16,359 nt of DNA, taken from the NCBI GenBank assembly GCA_029260695.1, contig JAJDCT010000394.1, positions 1-16,359 on the forward strand. The letters run 5' to 3'. Made by a program: the position numbers and the translations under genes. Within the stretch, counting starts at the first letter, position 1. Every line of letters starts with the position of its first letter. The notes below the pieces were generated by a model. It did no database searches. It was not told the origin of the DNA and worked only from the letters and a program-made list of their open reading frames with translations. This document shows positions 4,796 through 16,359 of this stretch, piece by piece. Source of the stretch: Phycisphaeraceae bacterium. Its GTDB lineage: Bacteria > Planctomycetota > Phycisphaerae > Phycisphaerales > Phycisphaeraceae.

Positions 4796-5605
4796 ATGGC
4801 CATCAACGCACTGCACTCCGCCGCCACGGGACTTAGCGCCTTGTCCAACGCCATCGACGTCACCGCCAACAACCTCGCCAACGCCAACACCGTCGGCTTC
4901 AAGGCTTCACGCACCAACTTTGAAGACCTGCTCTATCTACAAAAAGCGCAGCCAGGCGTCGAGAACGCCAACGGTGACCAGCGTCCCGCGGGCATTCAGG
5001 TCGGGCTGGGCACTCGGTTAAGCAACACGCAAGCCGACTTCACCGTCGGCAGCCCCCAGAAAACCAATGGCAACTTCGACGTGATGATCAACGGTGACGG
5101 GTTCTTTAAAATCGCGATCCTCCCCGATCAGGGTGACGGCGTTGGGTACACTCGGGCAGGCAACTTCTTCCCCAACAGCGAAGGCGACCTGGTCCTGGGC
5201 AACTCCAACGGCCCACGGCTCGAGCCGGCTATCAACGTCCCCGACGGTGTCATCGGCATCGAGATTTCCGAAGACGGCACCATCTCCGGAAAGACCAACG
5301 GCTCAACCGCACCGGTCGAACTCGGTCAGATCGAGATCGCCACGTTCGTTAACCGCGCAGGTCTTGAATCTATCGGTGGCAATATCTTCATCGAGACACC
5401 CGCCTCCGGCTCGCCTATCGAAGGCACCCCCGGCGAGGGCACACTCGGGACGATTATGCACCGGTTCCTCGAATCCTCCAATGTCGACCCCGTAATCGAG
5501 CTGGTCTCGCTGATTAAGACCCAGCGTGCTTTCGAGATGAACAGCCAGACGATCCAGGCCGCCGACGAGGCCCTGCAGGTCATCGGCAACCTCAGCCGGT
5601 TCTAA
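4796..5605 (+). CDS. flgG: Flagellar distal rod protein FlgG
   Basis: A 269-residue distal rod subunit, close to the 260 residues of enteric FlgG. The N-terminal D0 helix carries TANNLANANTVGFKA (about 23-37), followed by the FlgG-specific segment FEDLLYLQKAQPG (about 43-55), which stiffens the rod relative to the hook. The middle has NGDGFFKI and YTRAGNFFPNSEGDLV, the conserved rod/hook core. The C-terminus has ESSNVDPVIELVSLIKTQRAFEMNS, split here as the SNVDPV motif plus the QRAFE motif. The start is fixed by GAGG about 8 nt upstream of ATG 4796. It lies 49 nt after flgF and 35 nt before flgA, so it is probably co-transcribed. Confidence 0.95.
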   Translation: MAINALHSAATGLSALSNAIDVTANNLANANTVGFKASRTNFEDLLYLQKAQPGVENANGDQRPAGIQVGLGTRLSNTQADFTVGSPQKTNGNFDVMINGDGFFKIAILPDQGDGVGYTRAGNFFPNSEGDLVLGNSNGPRLEPAINVPDGVIGIEISEDGTISGKTNGSTAPVELGQIEIATFVNRAGLESIGGNIFIETPASGSPIEGTPGEGTLGTIMHRFLESSNVDPVIELVSLIKTQRAFEMNSQTIQAADEALQVIGNLSRF

Positions 5606-5640: not shown

Positions 5641-6768
5641 ATGCTTGATATCGAGCCCGACAACACACCCGGCGCAACCTTACGTCGAATGCTTATGCTC
5701 TTGTTGGCGGCTTTGGTGATGGCGTTCGGGATCGCAGCACGAGCAGATTCGGTCAGGCTCTACGACCAGGTTGGTGTTGAAGGCTCGAGCGTCACCCTCA
5801 ATCAGGTCGCCCATCTCGACGGCCCGTCGGCTAGAGCGCTTGGCAAAGTGGTACTCGCATCACTCCAAGAAGGCCAGGCCGAGTTCACGGTCACACTCGA
5901 TGCTGTCGAAGCCGCGCTCGACGACGCCGGCGTCAACTGGGGTCTTGTCTCGCTCCGCGGATTCAATGCATGCAGGGTCATCCGACTGTCCTCCCCACCG
6001 GCACCGGTCCCCGACCAGGGACAGGCCTTTGCGGCAAACATCGAAACACCCATCGGCCTGAGCACCACACTCACTCTACGCGGCCTGCTCGAACAGCACA
6101 TCGCAGACCGTGCATCGACGAATCTTGACGACCTGCGGATCAAGTTCACGGAACGAGACACCAAGAAACTGGATATCCCGATCCTTGGTCGATCGGTCGA
6201 GGTCGAACCCACGTCCGCGAATACCCTCGGCAGGGTCCCGGTCGTGATACGGCTCTACGACGCACAACACATCGCCGAGACGATCAATGTCAGCGCCAAA
6301 GTCCAGCGTGTGCTCCTGGCGGTGGTCGCCGATGCGCCGATCTCACGGGGTGAGGTTTTTACACGATCCAAGCTGAAAGTCCGGGAATGTTACGTCGACG
6401 ATAACGCCGTCACGCCCATCACCGACCCCAGCTCGATCATCGGGCAGGAGTCGTCCTCGTCTCTGCGTGCCGGCCAGATGGTTTCCGCACGCATGGTCAA
6501 GTCACCGATCATGGTCAAGCGCGGCGAGCTGGTTGATGTCCGATGTTTTGTCGGCGGACTCGTGGTCAGGACCGTGGGGCGCGCCGCAGAGAACGGCTCG
6601 CGAGATGATCTGATCCGCATCCATAACGATGCCGGCGGCTCCAGGGGCGAAGATTACTACGCCATCGTCACCGGGCGTCGCCAGGCCGTCGTTTCCACGG
6701 GCGCTGTGCCGAAAGCCCAAGCCACGACCGCGATGGCTGACAACCAAGAGCAGGGGGCCACACCTTGA
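5641..6768 (+). CDS. flgA: P-ring assembly chaperone FlgA (long form)
   Basis: A 375-residue secreted periplasmic protein that helps FlgI assemble into the P ring. A hydrophobic segment at about residues 17-34 (MLMLLLAALVMAFGIAARA) with a likely cleavage after ARA looks like a Sec signal peptide, preceded by an unusually long 15-residue n-region; the later Mets at 17 and 19 are alternative starts, but AAGGA upstream supports 5641. The mature N-terminal domain (VTLNQVAHLDGPSARALG) is FlgA-like, and from about residue 228 there is the C-terminal SAF/antifreeze-like domain with APISRGEVFTRSKL, SSLRAGQMVSARMV and VKRGELVDVRC. It is much longer than the roughly 219-residue enteric FlgA. Three cysteines are present. 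The stop overlaps the flgH TTG start. Confidence 0.88.
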   Translation: MLDIEPDNTPGATLRRMLMLLLAALVMAFGIAARADSVRLYDQVGVEGSSVTLNQVAHLDGPSARALGKVVLASLQEGQAEFTVTLDAVEAALDDAGVNWGLVSLRGFNACRVIRLSSPPAPVPDQGQAFAANIETPIGLSTTLTLRGLLEQHIADRASTNLDDLRIKFTERDTKKLDIPILGRSVEVEPTSANTLGRVPVVIRLYDAQHIAETINVSAKVQRVLLAVVADAPISRGEVFTRSKLKVRECYVDDNAVTPITDPSSIIGQESSSSLRAGQMVSARMVKSPIMVKRGELVDVRCFVGGLVVRTVGRAAENGSRDDLIRIHNDAGGSRGEDYYAIVTGRRQAVVSTGAVPKAQATTAMADNQEQGATP

Positions 6769-7481
6769 AATCGTTTGTTGCCGTGTTTGTATTGATAGCC
6801 GCGACATTGGCGGTCACACAGGCCGTCCCGGTGCTGGGCCAGTCGTCTTCACTGTATCTTCGTCAAGAGCCGGCCGCAGCCGTACCGTCCCAGGTTCAAG
6901 GCCCCGGCATGCTTTCCCCCGTGATCGCTGCCAACAGCTTCCTCGCCGTGCAGATCCCCGAGCCCAGGCAGTACGCCAAGAACGACCTGGTCACGATCAT
7001 CATCCGCGAGTCATTCAAGACAGACCTCAAAGCCTCGTTGGAGACCGAGAAAGAACTGAAACTCGAAGGCGAGATCTCCGACTTAATCGACTTGGACAAG
7101 CTATTGGAACTGGTCGTTCAGCCCGACGGCTTCGCCGAAGGCAACCCCAAGGTTGGCGTGGATATGACCAATGAGTGGGAAGGCGACGGCGATTACTCAC
7201 GCTCCGAAAGCATGACCGGCCGACTCACCGCGCGGATCGCAGATGTCAAGCCAAACGGCACCCTGATCCTCGAAGCCAAACAAACGATTGTCCACGACCG
7301 CGAAGAGCTGATGATTACCCTCACCGGCACCTGCCGCGCCGCGGACATCACCCTCGACAACACCGTGCTCTCTACCGAGTTGTACGACCTGAATATGAAC
7401 AAGCAGCACAAAGGCGAGTTGAAGAAGTCGACCCGCAAGGGATTCCTGACGAATTTCTTCGACGCGATTTTTAGTTTCTGA
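6765..7481 (+). CDS. flgH: Flagellar L-ring protein FlgH, apparently without a lipobox
   Basis: A 238-residue L-ring subunit of the outer-membrane bushing. The start is TTG at 6765, overlapping the flgA stop as TTGA, with AGGGGG 7 nt upstream. The N-terminus MKSFVAVFVLIAATLAVTQA is a clear signal peptide. Family features follow: NDLVTIIIRESFKTDL (about residues 73-88), SRSESMTGRLTARI (about 146-159) and the C-terminal NGTLILEAKQ, ITLTGTCRAADI, and NTVLSTELYDL blocks. Canonical FlgH is a lipoprotein with a Cys at the signal-peptide end; here the region reads AVPVLGQSSSLYL with no Cys, and the only Cys in the protein lies far inside the mature chain. It would therefore be released by signal peptidase I and sit in the ring without a lipid anchor. 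Confidence 0.9.
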   Translation: MKSFVAVFVLIAATLAVTQAVPVLGQSSSLYLRQEPAAAVPSQVQGPGMLSPVIAANSFLAVQIPEPRQYAKNDLVTIIIRESFKTDLKASLETEKELKLEGEISDLIDLDKLLELVVQPDGFAEGNPKVGVDMTNEWEGDGDYSRSESMTGRLTARIADVKPNGTLILEAKQTIVHDREELMITLTGTCRAADITLDNTVLSTELYDLNMNKQHKGELKKSTRKGFLTNFFDAIFSF

Positions 7482-7533: not shown

Positions 7534-8619
7534 ATGAAACCACGTAGCGTCCAATGGATATCGGGGCTCTTGATCGCGGCGGCGTTTGCCGTCTTACCCG
7601 CCAGCGCTGTGCAGGTTCAGGACATCGCCCGTCTCAAGGGGTCGGAGTCCAACAAGATCCTGGGCATGGGGCTGGTCGTCGGGCTCAACGGCACGGGTGA
7701 CGGCGGTAAATTCGCCCCCGCGATGAGGCCCCTTGCAGAGATGATCGGCCGGTTCGTCGACCCCAACACCGTCTGGACCGAACTCAAAGACGCCAAGAAC
7801 GTCGCGCTTGTCTCTATCACCGCTGAACTCCCCGCCAACGGCGTCCGTGAAGGCGACCGGGTCGATGTCCGTGTCTCCTCGATCGGCCCCGCCAAGAGCC
7901 TCAAGGGCGGCACCCTCTTCATGGTCCCCCTCATGGCGCCACGCCCCGATACCGAAATGATCTTCGCCTTCGCCGAAGGCTCGGTCAGCATCGAGGACGA
8001 GGACAACCCGACCGTCGGTGTGATCGATAACGGCGCCACACTCACACGCGACATCATGACCAAGCATGTGCACAACGGGCAGATCACGCTTGTGATCGAT
8101 GACGAGCACACCTCCTGGCCCGTCGCCCGGAACCTGGCACAGAATATTAACGACGAGCTCGCACCGGAAGGCCCACGGCTGGCGCGTGCGATCGATCCTA
8201 AGAACGTCACGGTCCAGATACCCATGTGGGAACGCAACGACCCGTCCTTGTTCTTAAGCAAGCTCATGGTGATGTCATTCCCCACCTCGCTGATGCCGAT
8301 CGAGGCCCGTGTTGTGATTAACGAGCGCACCGGAACGATCGTGATGTCCGGGAACGTTGAGATCAGTCCCGTCGTGATCTCCAAGAAAGGACTGACGATC
8401 ACCCGGTTAAGCCCCATCCCGGTGCCCGACCCCGCCAATCCCGCCTCGTTAGAAGACCACTTCGTCGGGCTCGACCCCGCGGACAGTGGCGGCACTAGGC
8501 TCGCTGATCTGATCGAAGCATTTAACCAGCTAAAAGTAGACGCCAAGGACCGCATCGAGATCATCAAGGCCATCGACGCCGCGGGACACCTGCACGCAAA
8601 ACTGGTCTTCGAGTTGTAA
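7534..8619 (+). CDS. flgI: Flagellar P-ring protein FlgI
   Basis: A 361-residue periplasmic P-ring subunit, almost the same length as enteric FlgI (365). The signal peptide MKPRSVQWISGLLIAAAF ends at about ASA (residue 25), after which the mature chain begins VQVQDIARLKG and continues to NKILGMGLVVGLNGTGDGG, the hallmark FlgI segment. GDRVDVRVSSIGPAKSLKGG (about 109-128) and the C-terminal ADLIEAFNQLKVDAKDRIEI are also typical. The start at ATG 7534 follows an AGAAGAAG tract. It lies 52 nt after flgH and 2 nt before flgJ. No unusual truncations are seen. Confidence 0.96.
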   Translation: MKPRSVQWISGLLIAAAFAVLPASAVQVQDIARLKGSESNKILGMGLVVGLNGTGDGGKFAPAMRPLAEMIGRFVDPNTVWTELKDAKNVALVSITAELPANGVREGDRVDVRVSSIGPAKSLKGGTLFMVPLMAPRPDTEMIFAFAEGSVSIEDEDNPTVGVIDNGATLTRDIMTKHVHNGQITLVIDDEHTSWPVARNLAQNINDELAPEGPRLARAIDPKNVTVQIPMWERNDPSLFLSKLMVMSFPTSLMPIEARVVINERTGTIVMSGNVEISPVVISKKGLTITRLSPIPVPDPANPASLEDHFVGLDPADSGGTRLADLIEAFNQLKVDAKDRIEIIKAIDAAGHLHAKLVFEL

Positions 8620-11352: not shown

Positions 11353-13293
11353 ATGTCCTCAATCTCGCGCACAACTTCACAGATGATTAGCAATCGGATG
11401 CTATCCACACTGCGCCAGACCAACGCGAGTCTGTTCGACGTACAACGTCAGATCAGCACCGGGCAGAAGCAGTCCATCCCATCGGACGATCCCAGCAACG
11501 CCAGCGCCATCCTGTTCCTGCGCCAGGGATTAACCGCTAGGGAGCAGCACGAAGAGAATCTAGTGCACTCCGCGGGGGTTCTGAACAACGCCGACCAGGC
11601 CTTGGGCGAAACGACCAACATCCTCATTGAGGCGCAGGCCATCGCGTCTAGTCTGATCAACGCCAGCGAGGAAGAGCGCCAGGCCGAAGCCCTGGTCATC
11701 GACGCCCAGATCAAGGGGTTGCTGGACCTGGCAAACCGCCAGCTTGACGGCGTATCGTTATTCGGGGGCAATGCCGGGGCCGCCGATGGAGGCCAGGTCT
11801 TCGAGGAGTTCCTCGGGGGCATCCGTTATACCGGGTCTGACGAGAATCTCCTGGCCGACACCGGCTTAGTTGAGAACCACTCCTTTACGAGTAACGGCGT
11901 CGAAGCCTTCGGGGCTTTGTCCTCACGGGTAAAGACCCAGGTCGATCTCGACCCCGACTCCTCCATCACGGCTAAGCTTAATGACCTCGACGGGGTATTC
12001 AATCAAGGCATCCGCAGGGGCCCGGTCAACCTCACCGTAGACGGCACGCAGGTCACGGTCGACCTGTCAGACGCCGACACACTGGGTGATGTCCGATCTC
12101 GGATCAACGGCGCGATCAACGCCATCGATCCCACCGCTGGCGCCATAGCGCTCGGCACGACGGCCTTCGAGCTGACCAATACCGCTGGGCACACGATCGT
12201 CATCGCCGATATCGGTAACGCCCAGACCGCATCGGACCTGGGCATCAACCTCCCGGCCCTTGCTCCGGGCGGTGGTACAGTCTTCGGCGGCGACATAAAT
12301 CGACGGCTCACGCTGACCACCGTGCTGACCGACCTGGGGCCGACGGTCGACTTCCTTGGCGGCCTCTCTATCACTCAGGGCGAGCAGACCCGCGTCGCCG
12401 ATTTCTCTGCCGCGGGTACGATCCAGGACCTGGTCAACGAGATCGATCGGCTGGAGCTTGGACTCCGCCTGCAGATTAACGACGAGGCAAATGGCCTGGA
12501 CTTAATCAGTGAGGTCAATGGGCTCCGCCTGTCCATCGGAGAAAACGGGGGGACCACGGCCGCCGACTTAGGCATCCGGACCTACGGCCTGCCGACCGCC
12601 CTCGCCGATTTCCGCGACGGCCTGGGTATCGAACCGATTACGGGCCAAGACGACTTCCAACTCACACTCAAGAACGGCGTCAATTTCGCGGTCGATGCCT
12701 CGGGCCTGGGCACCGTGGATGAACTCATCACCGCCATCGAAACCGCCGCCACCGGGGCAGGCCTCACCCTCGGCGTTAACTTCTCCGTCGGTCTGGCGAC
12801 CACCGGCAACGGCCTGGTCTTCCAGGACACCACCGGAGGCGCAGGCACGTTTACGATCACACGCGTCGGCCAGAGCCTCGTCGCAGACCAACTGGGCATC
12901 CTCAAGGAGGACGGAGCGGCCGCAACCTTCCAGAGCGCCGACAACGCAACCGTCCGTGTCGAGAATGCTTTCACACATTTAGTAGATTTACGCAACGCAT
13001 TACTCAATAACGACACGCTTGGCATCACACTTGCAGGTAGCAGTCTCGAAGCGGATACCCGCACGGTCACCCAGGCCCGCGCCAGCGTCGGCGTAAGGGC
13101 ACAAAGGGTCGAGCGTCAGCAAGAACGGTCACAGGACCTTGGATTGTTGGAACAGACCATGCTTAGTGATTTGCAGGACGCAGACCTAACCGAAGTCATC
13201 ACGCGATTCCAGCAATTGCAAACGCAGTTACAAATCTCGTTGCAGATGGGAGCGCAAAATCTGCAACTGAGTTTACTCGACTTCTTGCGCTAA
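11353..13293 (+). CDS. flgL: Hook-filament junction protein 3, FlgL, enlarged with repeat domains
   Basis: A 646-residue junction protein, about twice the length of enteric FlgL (317). The N-terminus has MISNRMLSTLRQTNASLFDV and QRQISTGQKQSIPSDDPS, the flagellin-like D0/D1 start of FlgL; the C-terminus has SVGVRAQRVERQQERSQDL and EVITRFQQLQTQLQISLQM, which return into the coiled coil. Between them, residues about 224-516 hold three similar beta-rich units, each ending in a Leu-Gly-Ile motif: about 224-299 (ending SDLGI), 337-408 (ending ADLGI) and 433-516 (ending DQLGI). Each has a Ser/Thr-Leu-x-Asp-Leu/Val-helix element in the middle, as in the Flagellin_IN motif. These would form surface domains on the junction. 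It lies 40 nt after flgK; the ribosome site is weak. Confidence 0.9.
   Translation: MSSISRTTSQMISNRMLSTLRQTNASLFDVQRQISTGQKQSIPSDDPSNASAILFLRQGLTAREQHEENLVHSAGVLNNADQALGETTNILIEAQAIASSLINASEEERQAEALVIDAQIKGLLDLANRQLDGVSLFGGNAGAADGGQVFEEFLGGIRYTGSDENLLADTGLVENHSFTSNGVEAFGALSSRVKTQVDLDPDSSITAKLNDLDGVFNQGIRRGPVNLTVDGTQVTVDLSDADTLGDVRSRINGAINAIDPTAGAIALGTTAFELTNTAGHTIVIADIGNAQTASDLGINLPALAPGGGTVFGGDINRRLTLTTVLTDLGPTVDFLGGLSITQGEQTRVADFSAAGTIQDLVNEIDRLELGLRLQINDEANGLDLISEVNGLRLSIGENGGTTAADLGIRTYGLPTALADFRDGLGIEPITGQDDFQLTLKNGVNFAVDASGLGTVDELITAIETAATGAGLTLGVNFSVGLATTGNGLVFQDTTGGAGTFTITRVGQSLVADQLGILKEDGAAATFQSADNATVRVENAFTHLVDLRNALLNNDTLGITLAGSSLEADTRTVTQARASVGVRAQRVERQQERSQDLGLLEQTMLSDLQDADLTEVITRFQQLQTQLQISLQMGAQNLQLSLLDFLR
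13020..13035 (+). promoter_or_regulatory. Sigma-54-like promoter inside flgL
   Basis: TGGCAT-CACAC-TTGCA matches TGGCAC-N5-TTGCW except for one position before the spacer and the following G, with exact GG/GC spacing. It lies in an AT-richer pocket of the gene. Transcription would start near 13046 and run through the end of flgL into fliW-csrA-fliC, with a leader of nearly 390 nt before fliW. Being inside a coding region, it may be coincidence. Confidence 0.3.
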
Positions 13294-13311
13294 CCAGCGC
13301 AAGCCTTGCGC
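13284..13311 (+). other. Two overlapping, mutually exclusive hairpins at the flgL stop
   Basis: Three arms lie in a row: CTTGCGC (13284-13290), GCGCAAG (13297-13303) and CTTGCGC (13305-13311). Arm 1 with arm 2 makes a perfect 7-bp hairpin with a 6-nt loop around the flgL stop codon; arm 2 with arm 3 makes a 6-bp hairpin with a 3-nt loop. They cannot form together. No U tract follows, so neither is a standard terminator. Confidence 0.45.
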
Positions 13312-13352
13312 AGCCCGGCGGCTCATCGGCCAGCTAACGGGCACGAACGACA

Positions 13353-13424
13353 GACGGCAAGTGCCGTCGACCTGGGCTGGAAGCCCAGGTAGGACATCCA
13401 GGACGGACAGGCCGTGAATTAGGA
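13353..13424 (+). promoter_or_regulatory. fliW leader: two tight hairpins and a cluster of GGA motifs
   Basis: GACGGC-AAGT-GCCGTC (13353-13368, with one further A-T pair possible on the inner side) is followed directly by a 9-bp perfect hairpin with arms ACCTGGGCT (13370-13378) and AGCCCAGGT (13382-13390) and the triloop GGA. Four more GGA trinucleotides follow, at about 13392, 13401, 13405 and 13422, the last being the fliW Shine-Dalgarno. GGA in loops and at ribosome sites is the recognition element of CsrA. Binding here is inferred. Confidence 0.45.
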
Positions 13425-13432
13425 CCTTGGTC

Positions 13433-13879
13433 ATGCTGATCAATACCTCGCGTTTCGGTGAAGTCGATGTGGACCAGACACGCATCATCACCTTCCCCAA
13501 GGGGATGCTTGGGTTCCCCAAGTACAAGCAGTATGTGCTGATCGAAGCCGGTGAAGAGAGCTACTTCTGGTGGCTGCAGTCCATCGAGATGCCCGACCTG
13601 GCATTCGTCGTCACCGACCCCAGCCTGTTTGTCCCGACCTACAAAGTCCCGCTGAAGCCCGAGCAGATGCAGGAGATGGGCCTGGAATCCCTCCAGGACG
13701 CTCAGGTGTTTGTGATTGTCAACAAGCGGGAACAACTGCTTACTGGCAACCTCCAGGGCCCGTTGGTGATCCACTGTGGCAAGCGGGTCGGGGTCCAGTT
13801 GGTCCTCAGCGATCGACGATTCACGACAAGGGTCCCCCTGATCGAGCTAGGGGCCGCCGTTCACGCGGCTTCGGCCTGA
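13433..13879 (+). CDS. fliW: Flagellar assembly factor FliW (CsrA antagonist)
   Basis: A 148-residue cytoplasmic protein. FliW binds newly made flagellin or CsrA; when flagellin is exported, FliW is freed, binds CsrA and relieves its block on flagellin translation. Family features are the N-terminal INTSRFGEVDVD, the segment ITFPKGMLGFPKYKQYVLI (with the conserved FPxGxxGF), YFWWLQSIEMPDLAFVV and the C-terminal LTGNLQGPLVIHC, which matches the usual LxANLxAPIVIN pattern. I chose ATG 13433 (MLINTSRFG) because AGGA lies about 8 nt upstream and relatives begin the same way; an in-frame TTG 6 nt earlier is possible. It is 139 nt after flgL and 133 nt before csrA, directly next to its two partners. 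Confidence 0.95.
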   Translation: MLINTSRFGEVDVDQTRIITFPKGMLGFPKYKQYVLIEAGEESYFWWLQSIEMPDLAFVVTDPSLFVPTYKVPLKPEQMQEMGLESLQDAQVFVIVNKREQLLTGNLQGPLVIHCGKRVGVQLVLSDRRFTTRVPLIELGAAVHAASA

Positions 13880-13958
13880 CATAACCGTGGTCGGTGCCCA
13901 CGCGCCGCCTCACAGAGACGTGCCTTGATTATCAACGCATACAACTACGAAACGGGAA

Positions 13959-13976
13959 CGCCGCAAGGAAGCGGCG
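13959..13976 (+). promoter_or_regulatory. CsrA-type hexaloop hairpin in the csrA leader
   Basis: CGCCGC (13959-13964) and GCGGCG (13971-13976) form a perfect all-GC 6-bp stem around the hexaloop AAGGAA, which contains the ARGGA core of the known CsrA binding consensus in its preferred hexaloop setting. It ends 36 nt before the csrA ATG. The csrA ribosome site itself, AAGGAAGGAG (13994-14003), holds two more GGA motifs. This is the layout expected for CsrA controlling its own translation. Confidence 0.55.
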
Positions 13977-14012
13977 CGAACGCGACACGGCCCAAGGAAG
14001 GAGCCCGAACCG

Positions 14013-14273
14013 ATGCTGGTTCTATCGCGTCAACGCGACGAGACGATCATGATCGGCGACGAGATCGAGATCACCGTCGTAGACATACGGGGAGACAAAG
14101 TCAGGCTGGGCATCTCCGCCCCCAGGCAGGTCCAGGTGCACCGCAAGGAGGTCTACGAGGCCATCCAACGCGAGAACACCTCTGCCACCCGGGTACAGGT
14201 GGACGACCTGAATGTAGCCGACAAAAACCTGCGCAAGCACAACGGCAAGCCGCCGAGCACGCAGACTTCATAA
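14013..14273 (+). CDS. csrA: Translational regulator CsrA
   Basis: An 86-residue RNA-binding homodimer subunit. The core [18 protein letters not shown] is canonical, with Leu4 and Arg6, and [19 protein letters not shown] carries Arg44; Leu4, Arg6 and Arg44 are the key RNA-contact residues in enteric CsrA. The C-terminus is long (enteric CsrA is 61 residues), extending from [10 protein letters not shown] through a Lys/Asn-rich tail. Extended C-termini are typical of CsrA proteins that work with FliW, which binds this region. The start is fixed by AAGGAAGGAG about 9 nt upstream. It sits between fliW and flagellin, the same arrangement as in other FliW-dependent systems. Confidence 0.96.
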
Positions 14274-14293
14274 ATAGAGGAACGAAAACGCCC

Positions 14294-14319
14294 GCGCGGA
14301 CCATGGAAGTTCCCCGCGC
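14294..14319 (+). promoter_or_regulatory. Upstream hairpin of the flagellin leader with a GGA in the loop
   Basis: GCGCGG (14294-14299) pairs perfectly with CCGCGC (14314-14319) around a 14-nt loop containing GGA at 14305-14307. In the Bacillus hag leader CsrA binds two sites, one upstream and one at the Shine-Dalgarno; this hairpin could be the upstream one. The loop is large, so the support is modest. A separate small hairpin CCGGC/GCCGG lies at 14358-14373. Confidence 0.35.
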
Positions 14320-14385
14320 CAGGGTACACACCCAAACCAGATTCAGCTCCGACGCCGCCGGCCATAAAGCCGGGTAGGCACTCGC

Positions 14386-14405
14386 GACAATCAAGGAGGA
14401 TTGTC
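14386..14405 (+). promoter_or_regulatory. CsrA-type hairpin presenting the flagellin Shine-Dalgarno in its loop
   Basis: GACAATC (14386-14392) and GATTGTC (14399-14405) form a perfect 7-bp stem, with the hexaloop AAGGAG (14393-14398). The loop is most of the flagellin ribosome site AAGGAGGA, which is fully complementary to the 16S tail and ends 6 nt before ATG 14407. GGA inside a hexaloop on a short stem is the best known CsrA target, and binding here would directly cover the ribosome site. The structure is seen in the sequence; binding is inferred. Confidence 0.72.
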
Positions 14406-14406
14406 T

Positions 14407-15873
14407 ATGACACGCATAAACACCAACGTCTCATCCCTGATCGCCCAGCGCAACCTGGCCGCCTCAAACGACAACCTCTCTGTGAGGCTCCAGAGGCTGA
14501 GCACCGGCCTGAAGATCAACCGCGGTGCCGACGACCCCGCGGGTCTGATCGTCTCCGAGCGGTTGCGGACCGAGATCTCCGGCGTCTCGCAGGCCGTCGA
14601 CAACATCGAACGCGCCAGTAACGTCATCGCCACCGCCGAGGGTGCGCTCTCGGAGATCAGCGCACTGCTGATCTCCATGAAGAGCCTGACCATCGAGTCC
14701 GCCAATACAGGGGCATTCTCGAAAGAAGAGATCGAGGCCAACCAGCTGCAGATCGATTCCGCGATCGACTCGATCACCCGGATCGCCAACACCACCAGCT
14801 TTGCCGGGCTTAAACTGCTCAACGGCTCGCTGGACTACATCAACCAGGGCCTGATCGCCTCTCAGATCACCGACCTGAGCATCACCGGCGTCAACTTCGG
14901 GACCAACGCAACGCTCCCAGTCACCGTCGAGGTCCTCAACTCCGCAGAGACCGCGACGCTGTTTATCTCCGCGTCCAACCCGGCAGCGCCCACGACCATC
15001 CTTTCGAGTGTCACCTTCTCACTGGCAGGCACCAACGGCGTGGAGGTCTTCGAGTTCGTCTCCGGCACGGCCCTGTCCTCGATCGCCTTCGGCATCAACG
15101 CCGTCTCCGACGCCACTGGCGTCTCCGCGCTCGTACTCAATACCTCTGGTTTACAGCTTAACGGCACCGCCTTCGGGTCCGACTCCTTCGTCTCGGTCAA
15201 GAAGCTGGACGACGGCGACTCGTTCAACACCGTCGACGCACTTAATGGCGCCTCGGTCAACCGCGATGAGGGTGCAGACGTACTCGCGTTGGTCAACGGG
15301 AACCTCGCGCTGGGCGATGGCCTGGACGTCACACTGAGGACCACCACGCTCGGCCTGGAGTTGTCACTGACTTCCGCCGCCGCGCAAACCCTCAACACGC
15401 CCTACAACTTCACCATCACCGGCGGCGGCGCGACCTACCAGATCGGCCCCACCGTCAACACGCAGCAACAGATCGGCTTCGGGATCCAGTCCGTCGCAGC
15501 CAACAACCTCGGCAATACCGTCGATGGGTTCCTCAGCTCCGTAAAATCGGGCGGGGACAACTCATTAGTCAAAGGTTCGGACGCCGCTGAACAGGCACGC
15601 AAGGCCTCGATTATCGTGGATAATTCGATCGATCAGGTATCCGTCCTCAGGGGTCGGCTCGGTGCCTTCGAACGCAACACCTTGCAGACCACGCTGCGTA
15701 GTTCGCAGATCGCCGTGGAGAACCTGACCTCCGCCGAGAGCGATGTCCGCGACACCGACTTCGCCGAGGAAACCGCCTTGCTCACACGTGCACAGATACT
15801 CCAGCAGGCCGGCACATCCACGCTGGCGATCGCAAACAACTCCGCTTCGAGCGTGTTGTCACTACTCGGCTAA
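14407..15873 (+). CDS. fliC: Flagellin (filament protein FliC)
   Basis: A 488-residue filament subunit, exported without a signal peptide. The conserved D0/D1 N-terminus begins MTRINTNVSSLIAQRNL and includes LQRLSTGLKINRGADDPAGL (about residues 26-45); the segment EEIEANQLQIDSAIDSI (about 108-124) is of the type I associate with planctomycete-like flagellins. The C-terminal D1/D0 part has RLGAFERNTLQTTL, SAESDVRDTDFAEE and QAGTSTLAIANNSASSVLSLLG. The variable centre (about 155-385) is beta-rich, with one IN-motif-like unit near 200-255. No cysteines. I chose ATG 14407 because AAGGAGGA ends exactly 6 nt upstream; a TTG at 14401 lies in the ribosome site. The gene follows csrA by 133 nt. No sigma-28 promoter is evident before it. 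Confidence 0.96.
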   Translation: MTRINTNVSSLIAQRNLAASNDNLSVRLQRLSTGLKINRGADDPAGLIVSERLRTEISGVSQAVDNIERASNVIATAEGALSEISALLISMKSLTIESANTGAFSKEEIEANQLQIDSAIDSITRIANTTSFAGLKLLNGSLDYINQGLIASQITDLSITGVNFGTNATLPVTVEVLNSAETATLFISASNPAAPTTILSSVTFSLAGTNGVEVFEFVSGTALSSIAFGINAVSDATGVSALVLNTSGLQLNGTAFGSDSFVSVKKLDDGDSFNTVDALNGASVNRDEGADVLALVNGNLALGDGLDVTLRTTTLGLELSLTSAAAQTLNTPYNFTITGGGATYQIGPTVNTQQQIGFGIQSVAANNLGNTVDGFLSSVKSGGDNSLVKGSDAAEQARKASIIVDNSIDQVSVLRGRLGAFERNTLQTTLRSSQIAVENLTSAESDVRDTDFAEETALLTRAQILQQAGTSTLAIANNSASSVLSLLG

Positions 15874-15879
15874 ATCGCG

Positions 15880-15906
15880 GCCGCCCTATCGGTGGGGTAG
15901 GGCGGC
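15880..15906 (+). other. 9-bp hairpin just after flagellin
   Basis: GCCGCCCTA (15880-15888) and TAGGGCGGC (15898-15906) form a perfect 9-bp stem with a 9-nt G-rich loop, starting 6 nt after the flagellin stop. There is no U tract. Placed before the true terminator, it may act as a 3'-end mRNA stabiliser for an abundant message. Confidence 0.5.
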
Positions 15907-15930
15907 GCGGGTCGAGACCCCAGTAATATC

Positions 15931-15962
15931 AAACCCGTGGCCAATCCGGCCGCGGGTTTTTT
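15931..15962 (+). terminator. Strong intrinsic terminator of the flagellar cluster
   Basis: AAACCCGTGGCC (15931-15942) pairs with GGCCGCGGGTTT (15948-15959) through a long stem with one T-G pair and a 5-nt loop, and a run of six T (15957-15962) follows the GC-rich part. This is a standard Rho-independent terminator and marks the end of the flagellin transcript. Confidence 0.9.
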
Positions 15963-16055
15963 CTCGGCTCGATGGATGACCCGCCCCGGTCTAGCCCCAG
16001 CCAAGACTTGGATTACAATGCACCGGCACCCTCTACTCACCCCGCGGGGTTACCT

Positions 16056-16359
16056 GTGCTGCGCATCGAAGATCTTGCTATCACCCCCGGCACACCAGAC
16101 GGCCGGAACCTGTTCGCCGGCCTGTCAATGACAGTCAAGCCCGGCGATTCCATCGGCGTGACGGGCCCATCCGGCTGCGGTAAATCGACGCTCTTAAGAT
16201 CCATTGTCGGCCTGATCGACCCAGCCGACGGTGCAGTTACTCTCGACGACAAGACACCCGGCGAGATCGGCTGGCCCACCTTCCGCAGGCGGGTCGGTCT
16301 TGTCCCTCAGCGTCCTGTCGTCTTCGACGGGTCGGTCGCATCCAATCTGCAAAGGCCAC
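16056..16359 (+). CDS. FetA/YbbL-like ABC transporter ATP-binding protein, N-terminal fragment
   Basis: The first 101 codons of a gene cut by the right edge. Residues 37-45 are Walker A (GPSGCGKST), followed by LLRSIVGLIDPADGAVTLDD and a Q-loop with RRRVGLVPQRPVVFDGSVASNL (in parts; Gln85). The PSGCGKSTLL start and the LVPQxPxxFxGSVxxNL pattern are like the FetA/YbbL family of ATPases, which pair with a FetB/YbbM permease and are linked to iron export in enteric bacteria; the part with signature, Walker B and partner gene lies outside the window. The start is taken as GTG 16056 (LRIEDLAIT follows) because no ATG lies in frame nearby; a GGGG lies a few nt upstream. A TACAAT (16014-16019) could be its -10 box. 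It stands after the flagellin terminator and is not part of the flagellar system. Confidence 0.75.
   Translation, partial: MLRIEDLAITPGTPDGRNLFAGLSMTVKPGDSIGVTGPSGCGKSTLLRSIVGLIDPADGAVTLDDKTPGEIGWPTFRRRVGLVPQRPVVFDGSVASNLQRP

Follow-up and report, generated by a model that had tools for sequence, protein, structure and literature searches.

A conserved hairpin presenting the flagellin Shine-Dalgarno sequence as a predicted CsrA site in Phycisphaeraceae and their relatives

The flagellar locus and the anatomy of its hairpin

The window, which denotes the whole stretch of 16,359 nucleotides analysed in this study, is an entire contig of a Phycisphaeraceae assembly that is 77% complete and distributed over 492 contigs. 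Profile classification defines a flagellar order of flgF-like, flgA-like, weakly flgJ-like, flgN and flgK genes, followed by a gene with a flagellin domain and then by fliW, csrA and a flagellin, with further genes at 4796-5605, 6765-7481 and 7534-8619 lying between the classified ones. The flagellin-domain gene preceding fliW is taken for flgL on the basis of its position. The fliW gene (13433..13879, forward strand) encodes 148 residues that match Pfam family PF02623 and chain A of PDB entry 5dmb, with scores below the cut-offs of the NCBIfam FliW models, and its product is by homology a predicted antagonist of CsrA. The csrA gene (14013..14273, forward strand) encodes 86 residues including a C-terminal extension, matches PF02599 and exceeds the cut-offs of NF002469 and TIGR00202; the best PDB match of its product by E-value is chain D of 5dmb, aligned over residues 2-75, in an entry that also holds FliW. 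The csrA-linked flagellin (14407..15873, forward strand, 488 residues) contains the domains Flagellin_N and Flagellin_C (Pfam PF00669 and PF00700). Its location just downstream of fliW and csrA, proposed in an earlier note on this DNA, is confirmed by Pfam matches and coordinates, and the description of the gene set as planctomycete-like was right in its placement in the Planctomycetota, with relatives that are Phycisphaeraceae by title.

The end of the flagellin leader is occupied by a hairpin at 14386..14405 on the forward strand, whose perfect 7-bp stem and AAGGAG hexaloop, as described in the same note, are confirmed by direct reading of the sequence. The 5' arm GACAATC (14386..14392), defined by direct reading, folding and covariation with its partner, and the 3' arm GATTGTC (14399..14405) enclose the loop (14393..14398) with a C-G and then a U-A as closing pairs, and a single T at 14406 separates the 3' arm from the flagellin ATG at 14407, located 8 nt past the hexaloop. 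The loop contains the core of the Shine-Dalgarno (SD) sequence together with a predicted CsrA site of the form A-N-GGA-G. The equation of the hexaloop with the SD core is borne out, with the qualification that the SD probably runs one base into the stem to comprise AAGGAGG including G14399.

The stability of this structure is reflected in a free energy of -7.1 kcal/mol for the isolated 20-mer, which is equalled by only one of 200 dinucleotide shuffles. In a context of 80 nt, the hairpin dominates the local folding ensemble, with a probability of 0.99 for its second stem pair and of 0.997 for GGA being unpaired. The 111-nt flagellin leader as a whole is of unremarkable stability (z -0.85), thus illustrating that the hairpin signal is local. 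In place of the two or three pairs that had been proposed to break for translation, we infer that the 30S subunit would need to melt most of the hairpin. A stem of -7.1 kcal/mol is in principle enough to slow 30S binding, and in the window it spans the whole SD neighbourhood, properties that would also suit a protein-free brake acting by intrinsic SD sequestration or as a thermosensor, for which CsrA would be irrelevant. We consider such a brake unlikely as the full explanation in light of the features of the loop and its distribution described below, although the stem by itself may also slow initiation.

About 70 nt past the flagellin stop, the window contains a terminator-like hairpin with a T tail (15943-15958); three hairpins of this kind were found in the region compared to 2.5 in shuffled sequences, which is about chance. 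A search of Rfam with positions 13200-14700 yielded zero matches at E-values up to 1, and no sigma-70-like promoter was found within 13250-16359. Candidate sigma-28 and sigma-54 promoters in the window were rejected, as their consensus patterns scored no better than chance. For Planctomycetia, predicted sigma-54 targets are reported to be enriched in CsrA genes (PMC12316311).

Conservation, covariation and loop signature

Leaders were collected from 51 genomes of the window's family, with loci taken from the best 30 flagellin matches, and from a wider scan of GTDB genomes, of which the best 80 of 409 flagellin relatives were included, mostly Phycisphaerae by title and one titled Brocadiia. Upon removal of 14 duplicates, the 110 loci provided 96 distinct leaders, 95 of which constitute the gapless alignment A1, whereas L030 was dropped for want of GGA. 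The register of A1 was fixed by a search for A.GGA, which is present in 93 of the 96 leaders, and GTGGAG was aligned manually in L063 and L067. The linkage of csrA and fliW to flagellin found in the window extends to these relatives: in 95 of 96 leaders, csrA is encountered no more than 270 nt upstream, and 94 also have fliW on their upstream side, with L102, whose contig offers just 175 nt, displaying neither of the two. At least two CsrA matches are present in 42 of the 51 family genomes, the second being divergent and located away from the flagellar operon; in the genome of the window this second copy resides at G000:C271:2923-3084 (L295).

Among the distinct leaders, GGA is in register in 95 of 96, the exception being L030, and the loop is surrounded by at least five pairs in 80 of the 95 flagellin leaders obtained from the best 80 of 409 GTDB relatives and the best 30 family matches. 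The distance from the loop end to the start codon is confined to 7-11 nt in all 95. The second stem pair is formed with a probability above 0.5 (80-nt context) in 29 of 32 family leaders versus 38 of the 63 remaining leaders of A1, and inspection by eye of about 100 nt upstream across the window's family did not reveal conserved blocks other than the stem. Relatives that keep the SD but lack the arms, which the earlier note had named as evidence against its reading, do exist as a minority, with stems of fewer than five pairs in 15 of the 95 leaders, all of which have csrA and fliW upstream. Two family genomes depart further, both retaining csrA and fliW: in G003 (C19; L030, L275), GGA is missing before the csrA-linked flagellin, and in G042 (C1; L274), ATGGAG is placed on just three pairs.

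The complementarity of the arms is preserved by covariation. In 88 distinct rows, and in comparisons that take no account of relatedness among them, 84.7% of cells pair versus 76.2% upon shuffling, both sides are altered in 52 cells versus 19.2, and the covariation score of 0.253 exceeds the shuffled value of 0.125, being reached by none of 500 shuffles, with slid registers remaining at or below 0.124. Six of the seven stem pairs have changed on both sides. On a flagellin tree of 188 branches constructed by a quick method, with changes averaged over 20 random parsimony resolutions, pair-to-pair double changes on single branches amount to about 8.4, compared to 0.6, 1.0 and 2.8 if the partners are slid by 1, 2 and 3 positions, and the evidence from covariation hence comes down to about eight compensatory events. 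Co-change above independence is found for pairs 2 (U-A to A-U), 4, 5 and 6 (p 0.0002 to 0.03); the value for pair 1 (p 0.005) derives from one change only, and pairs 3 and 7 fail to reach significance on their own. A compensatory example is located beside the closing pair, where U-A is converted to A-U in GACAAAC/GTTTGTC. The closing pairs of the window prevail throughout the 88 rows, with C-G in 87 and U-A in 80. A comparison of relatives for covarying arms around an invariant GGA, as the earlier note had suggested, has thus turned out positive.

These properties bear on two further interpretations. If just an extended SD were conserved and the complementary arms incidental, conservation of the inner arm as sequence would be expected, and bases T11, C12, G19, A20 and T21 are indeed kept in at least 90% of A1. 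However, the compensatory changes largely refute this reading, which we regard as extremely unlikely. Alternatively, the inverted repeat might act at the DNA level as an operator bound by a transcription factor, since GACAATC/GATTGTC is also a palindrome in DNA with a 6-bp spacer, and the wobble pattern (17 G-U versus 8 A-C cells) is weak as a test of RNA versus DNA. An operator is nevertheless very unlikely in light of a spacer that is asymmetric and the most conserved part of the element, of the invariably short distance of the repeat to the start codon noted above, and of other flagellin starts bearing the same loop form on different arms.

The loop contains a first A in 93 of the 95 rows, GGA in all and G as sixth base in 94, whereas the second base is free, which is reflected in the hexaloops AAGGAG (46), ACGGAG (34), AGGGAG (7), ATGGAG (5), GTGGAG (2) and AGGGAA (1). 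On the flagellin tree, loop positions 1-6 have changed 1, 18, 0, 0, 0 and 1 times, compared to 29-43 changes for each of the 13 bases 5' of the stem. With both sets anchored on whichever GGAG lies nearest upstream of the start, which excludes L008 and L030, the base two before GGA is an A in 92 of 94 leaders of flagellins versus 78 of 268 control SD sites of the same loci. As judged from these aligned sequences, the conservation pattern of the loop is that of the A(N)GGAX rule of CsrA/RsmE. A hexaloop of this form placed directly on a stem is described, in the accessible text, as the high-affinity form for these proteins (PMC4005645), and it is found in the window as AAGGAG on seven pairs. A fixed A and a free base before GGA are not called for by an explanation that involves only the ribosome, and a protein-free brake would require neither these two positions nor a fixed hexaloop with an unpaired SD.

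Distribution of the hairpin and leader architectures

For comparison, we used 268 control SD sites of mechanically defined open reading frames of at least 150 codons, from loci numbered L044 and up, and unlinked flagellin paralogues of the window's family, of which 40 were fetched and 39 counted, the start of L148 being out of register. On the contigs of these 40, no CsrA match is located within 80 kb of the paralogue, as determined by comparing positions by eye. A stem of at least five pairs around a hexaloop is found in 11 of 268 control sites and in none of the 39 paralogues, as opposed to 80 of 95 leaders, and the hairpin is therefore beyond chance. The control matches comprise eight further flagellins and one fliW; of the remaining two, one precedes a csrA start by 67 nt and the other belongs to an unrelated gene. 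This concentration on flagellin, fliW or csrA-upstream sites (10 of 11) is not expected for a protein-free brake.

The further flagellins (L082, L084, L088, L090, L091, L092, L094 and L097) are located downstream of the csrA-linked one and carry their own SD hairpins with other arms, namely GATAAC-ACGGAG-GTTGTC, ATAAC-ACGGAG-GTTGT or ACAAC-ACGGAG-GTTGT. The ANGGAG hexaloop hairpin at the fliW start (L071) reads TGTAC-ATGGAG-GTACA and precedes the start of the flagellin by about 961 nt, and the one upstream of csrA (L053) reads GAGGC-ACGGAG-GCCTC and precedes it by about 460 nt.

In the unlinked paralogues, the SD is mostly kept (often as ACGGAGGA) while the arms are mostly absent, illustrating that the arms do not simply arise along with an SD and adding to the evidence against a merely extended SD. 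Even if loops of 4-9 nt are permitted close to the start, stems of at least five pairs are restricted to 6 of 39 paralogues versus 90 of 95 leaders. The unlinked flagellins could in turn not be retained as a control free of CsrA, since under relaxed criteria GGA-loop hairpins are present further upstream in 18 of 39, compared to 6.5 expected from shuffles; the strict upstream ANGGAx hexaloop is found in 1 of 39. These flagellins may therefore be subject to CsrA through a differently arranged leader. Leaders L124, L130, L131, L133, L135, L136, L138, L142, L144 and L145 combine GGA-loop hairpins with an open SD, and hairpins such as GGAT-CGGAG-ATCC and AGGC-AGGA-GCCT appear, as judged by eye, to be common to several of them.

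The specificity of the hairpin was investigated with a covariance model (R1) that was run on the 51 family genomes and to which family leaders had contributed, so that the search tests specificity and not discovery. At E <0.01, 44 of 45 places are located at the csrA-linked flagellin, covering 44 of 51 genomes, with one found elsewhere. Of the seven genomes without a match, two lack the stem (G003 and G042) and five lack such a leader in the assembly: G004, G010 and G025 are devoid of the operon-type CsrA, the flagellin of G032 starts only at a contig edge, and G007, whose assembly is 78% complete, has no flagellin match and only the second type of CsrA. A scan of 294 genomes of the phylum at E 0.02 identified 28 places in 27 genomes, 16 at flagellin starts and 12 elsewhere, with flagellins accounting for 12 of the best 13 (E up to 6e-4) and including L184, L188, L194 and L199 outside the class. 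Two matches preceding genes that escaped the flagellar queries are candidates for further CsrA targets: GACATCC-AAGGAG-GGATGTC, which precedes a 293-residue protein of unknown function in a planctomycete genome (L182:1501-1530, forward strand), and a match in the window's family before a protein resembling ParB on visual inspection (L169:2026-2055, reverse strand).

Leaders were further classified by a strict rule defining an ANGGAx hexaloop on at least four Watson-Crick pairs, either at the SD or in an upstream zone (SL1) between -75 and -21. In the window's family, represented by 32 leaders excluding L030 and further members found later, the SD hairpin is present in 32 of 32 and the upstream hairpin in 1 of 32; a looser rule detects the latter in 7 of 32 versus 2.8 expected. 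The remaining 63 rows of A1 contain 8 upstream and 48 SD hairpins. A distinct picture emerges for 63 leaders from other planctomycete classes, where SL1 is found in 24 (0.3 expected from shuffles), the SD hairpin in 22 and both in 15, and where a second ANGGA hairpin off the SD, as present in these 24, would not be required by a protein-free brake. The spacing of the two loops in the 15 double leaders is 22-26 nt in 13 cases and 38 nt in two. This sample is not random, as it comprises a ranked list together with L188, L194 and L199, which were picked from model matches, and L200, which was first met likewise; without these four loci, SL1 is found in 22 of 59 leaders, the SD hairpin in 18 of 59 and both in 13, with a spacing of 22-26 nt in 11 of the 13. 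The 63 leaders also include five species of one genus (L209-L212 and L214) and regions starting a few bases off the true start (L218, L220, L225, L243 and L266-L269 among others), while L201-L203 were left out of the strict count and kept in the looser one.

A trade-off between SL1 and the length of the SD stem is not supported, as trends are opposed between leader sets in tests that take no account of relatedness. With SL1 assigned by the loose rule, A1 leaders outside the window's family show shorter SD stems in its presence (p 0.049, n 7 vs 56). The opposite applies to other classes, where SD stems are longer with SL1 (p 0.013, n 22 vs 31), and all 95 leaders taken together show no difference (p 0.225, n 10 vs 85).

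The SD region of csrA itself (GGCCCAAGGAAGGAGCC; 13989..14005, forward strand) contains tandem GGA motifs. Across csrA leaders, GGAAGGA is found in 68 of 94 and A.GGAAGGA in 47 of 94, with a flanking stem of at least four pairs in 15 of the 68, which makes this region a possible site of CsrA autoregulation.

A putative CsrA-FliW brake on flagellin synthesis

The described anatomy of the hairpin, its conservation and covariation, the signature of its loop and its linkage to fliW and csrA are direct observations, and the structure predicts a CsrA site that overlaps with the SD of the flagellin. In light of an SD embedded in a conserved, CsrA-shaped hairpin, it is very probable that a CsrA-FliW brake of the Bacillus and Campylobacter type is used by these poorly studied planctomycetes, with the hairpin acting as a translational control element through which CsrA would repress and FliW would release flagellin synthesis. 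In this mechanism, the SD would be displayed as an A(N)GGAX hexaloop on a stem closed by C-G and U-A, the high-affinity shape for CsrA/RsmE, and CsrA encoded by the adjoining gene would dock on the loop and block access of the 30S subunit. FliW that is not occupied by unexported flagellin would remove CsrA from the leader, and the export of flagellin would set FliW free, as described for Bacillus in the available parts of the respective studies (PMC6529632, PMC7652899), so that flagellin would be made only during export. As a prediction from sequence, the earlier interpretation of the hairpin as a CsrA target is well supported.

The comparison with known systems underlines shared and distinct features, as far as the consulted parts of the literature describe them. 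The flaA leader of Campylobacter jejuni, against which the proposed likeness was checked in the published account, also places an ANGGA loop over the ribosome site, shows compensatory changes in relatives and belongs to a genome with FliW; in contrast to the window, it contains two ANGGA hairpins, with CsrA binding shown at both and GGA motifs 21 nt apart, in a leader of 45 nt (PMC4894983). CsrA is a dimer and flaA uses two sites, whereas the window's family offers essentially the SD hairpin alone with its 7-bp stem. The two-hairpin leaders of other classes (15 of 63, with 13 of 15 showing the 22-26 nt spacing) resemble flaA in this respect. In the window, a second upstream CsrA site was not seen, and the hairpin CCGGC-CATAAA-GCCGG (14358..14373, forward strand), near the spot of the GGA-loop hairpin in many other-class leaders, does not contain GGA. 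Since one site may suffice, the missing second site lowers the likeness to flaA but not the membership in the CsrA-FliW-flagellin module. In case of Bacillus subtilis hag, the flagellin SD is likewise blocked by CsrA, which is antagonised by FliW, and the genes of both proteins are neighbours, although two CsrA sites are reported (PMC7652899, PMC6529632); this likeness was drawn from literature descriptions and not from the hag sequence. A close structural counterpart is found in Pseudomonas fluorescens hcnA, where a 20-nt stem-loop bound by RsmE encompasses the ribosome site with an ACGGAU hexaloop, though hcnA is not a flagellin gene and antagonism is exerted by small RNAs, RsmX and RsmZ among them, instead of by FliW (PMC4005645). 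According to the same source, C-G followed by U-A closes three of the four RsmE-bound stem-loops of RsmZ, whose SL1 is said to share its loop and stem sequence with the 20-nt ribosome-site RNA (PMC4005645).

Collectively, our study has revealed the spread of the hairpin through the class and a two-hairpin form in other planctomycete classes, which are both new. To our knowledge, the phyla with characterised CsrA targets are few, and a search of the literature on Planctomycetota, mostly at the level of titles and abstracts, did not retrieve a described CsrA RNA target or a binding, footprint or expression experiment. The hairpin thus provides a precise candidate target of 20 nt that is open to a direct binding test, and the natural variation between leaders with one hairpin, two hairpins or no SD hairpin, as found in paralogues of one genome, would help to define the number of sites needed per CsrA dimer and to show how bacteria with multiple flagellins ration their filament proteins. 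We tentatively consider, as one possibility, that flagellin leaders of Planctomycetota are widely controlled by CsrA in several architectures, including two hairpins in other classes, a single hairpin in the window's family, where the SD loop would suffice by itself, and upstream GGA hairpins alone in unlinked paralogues. If this holds true, a single pool of CsrA and FliW could set which flagellin is made when in cells with multiple flagellins, to which the tandem GGA at the start site of csrA would add autoregulation.
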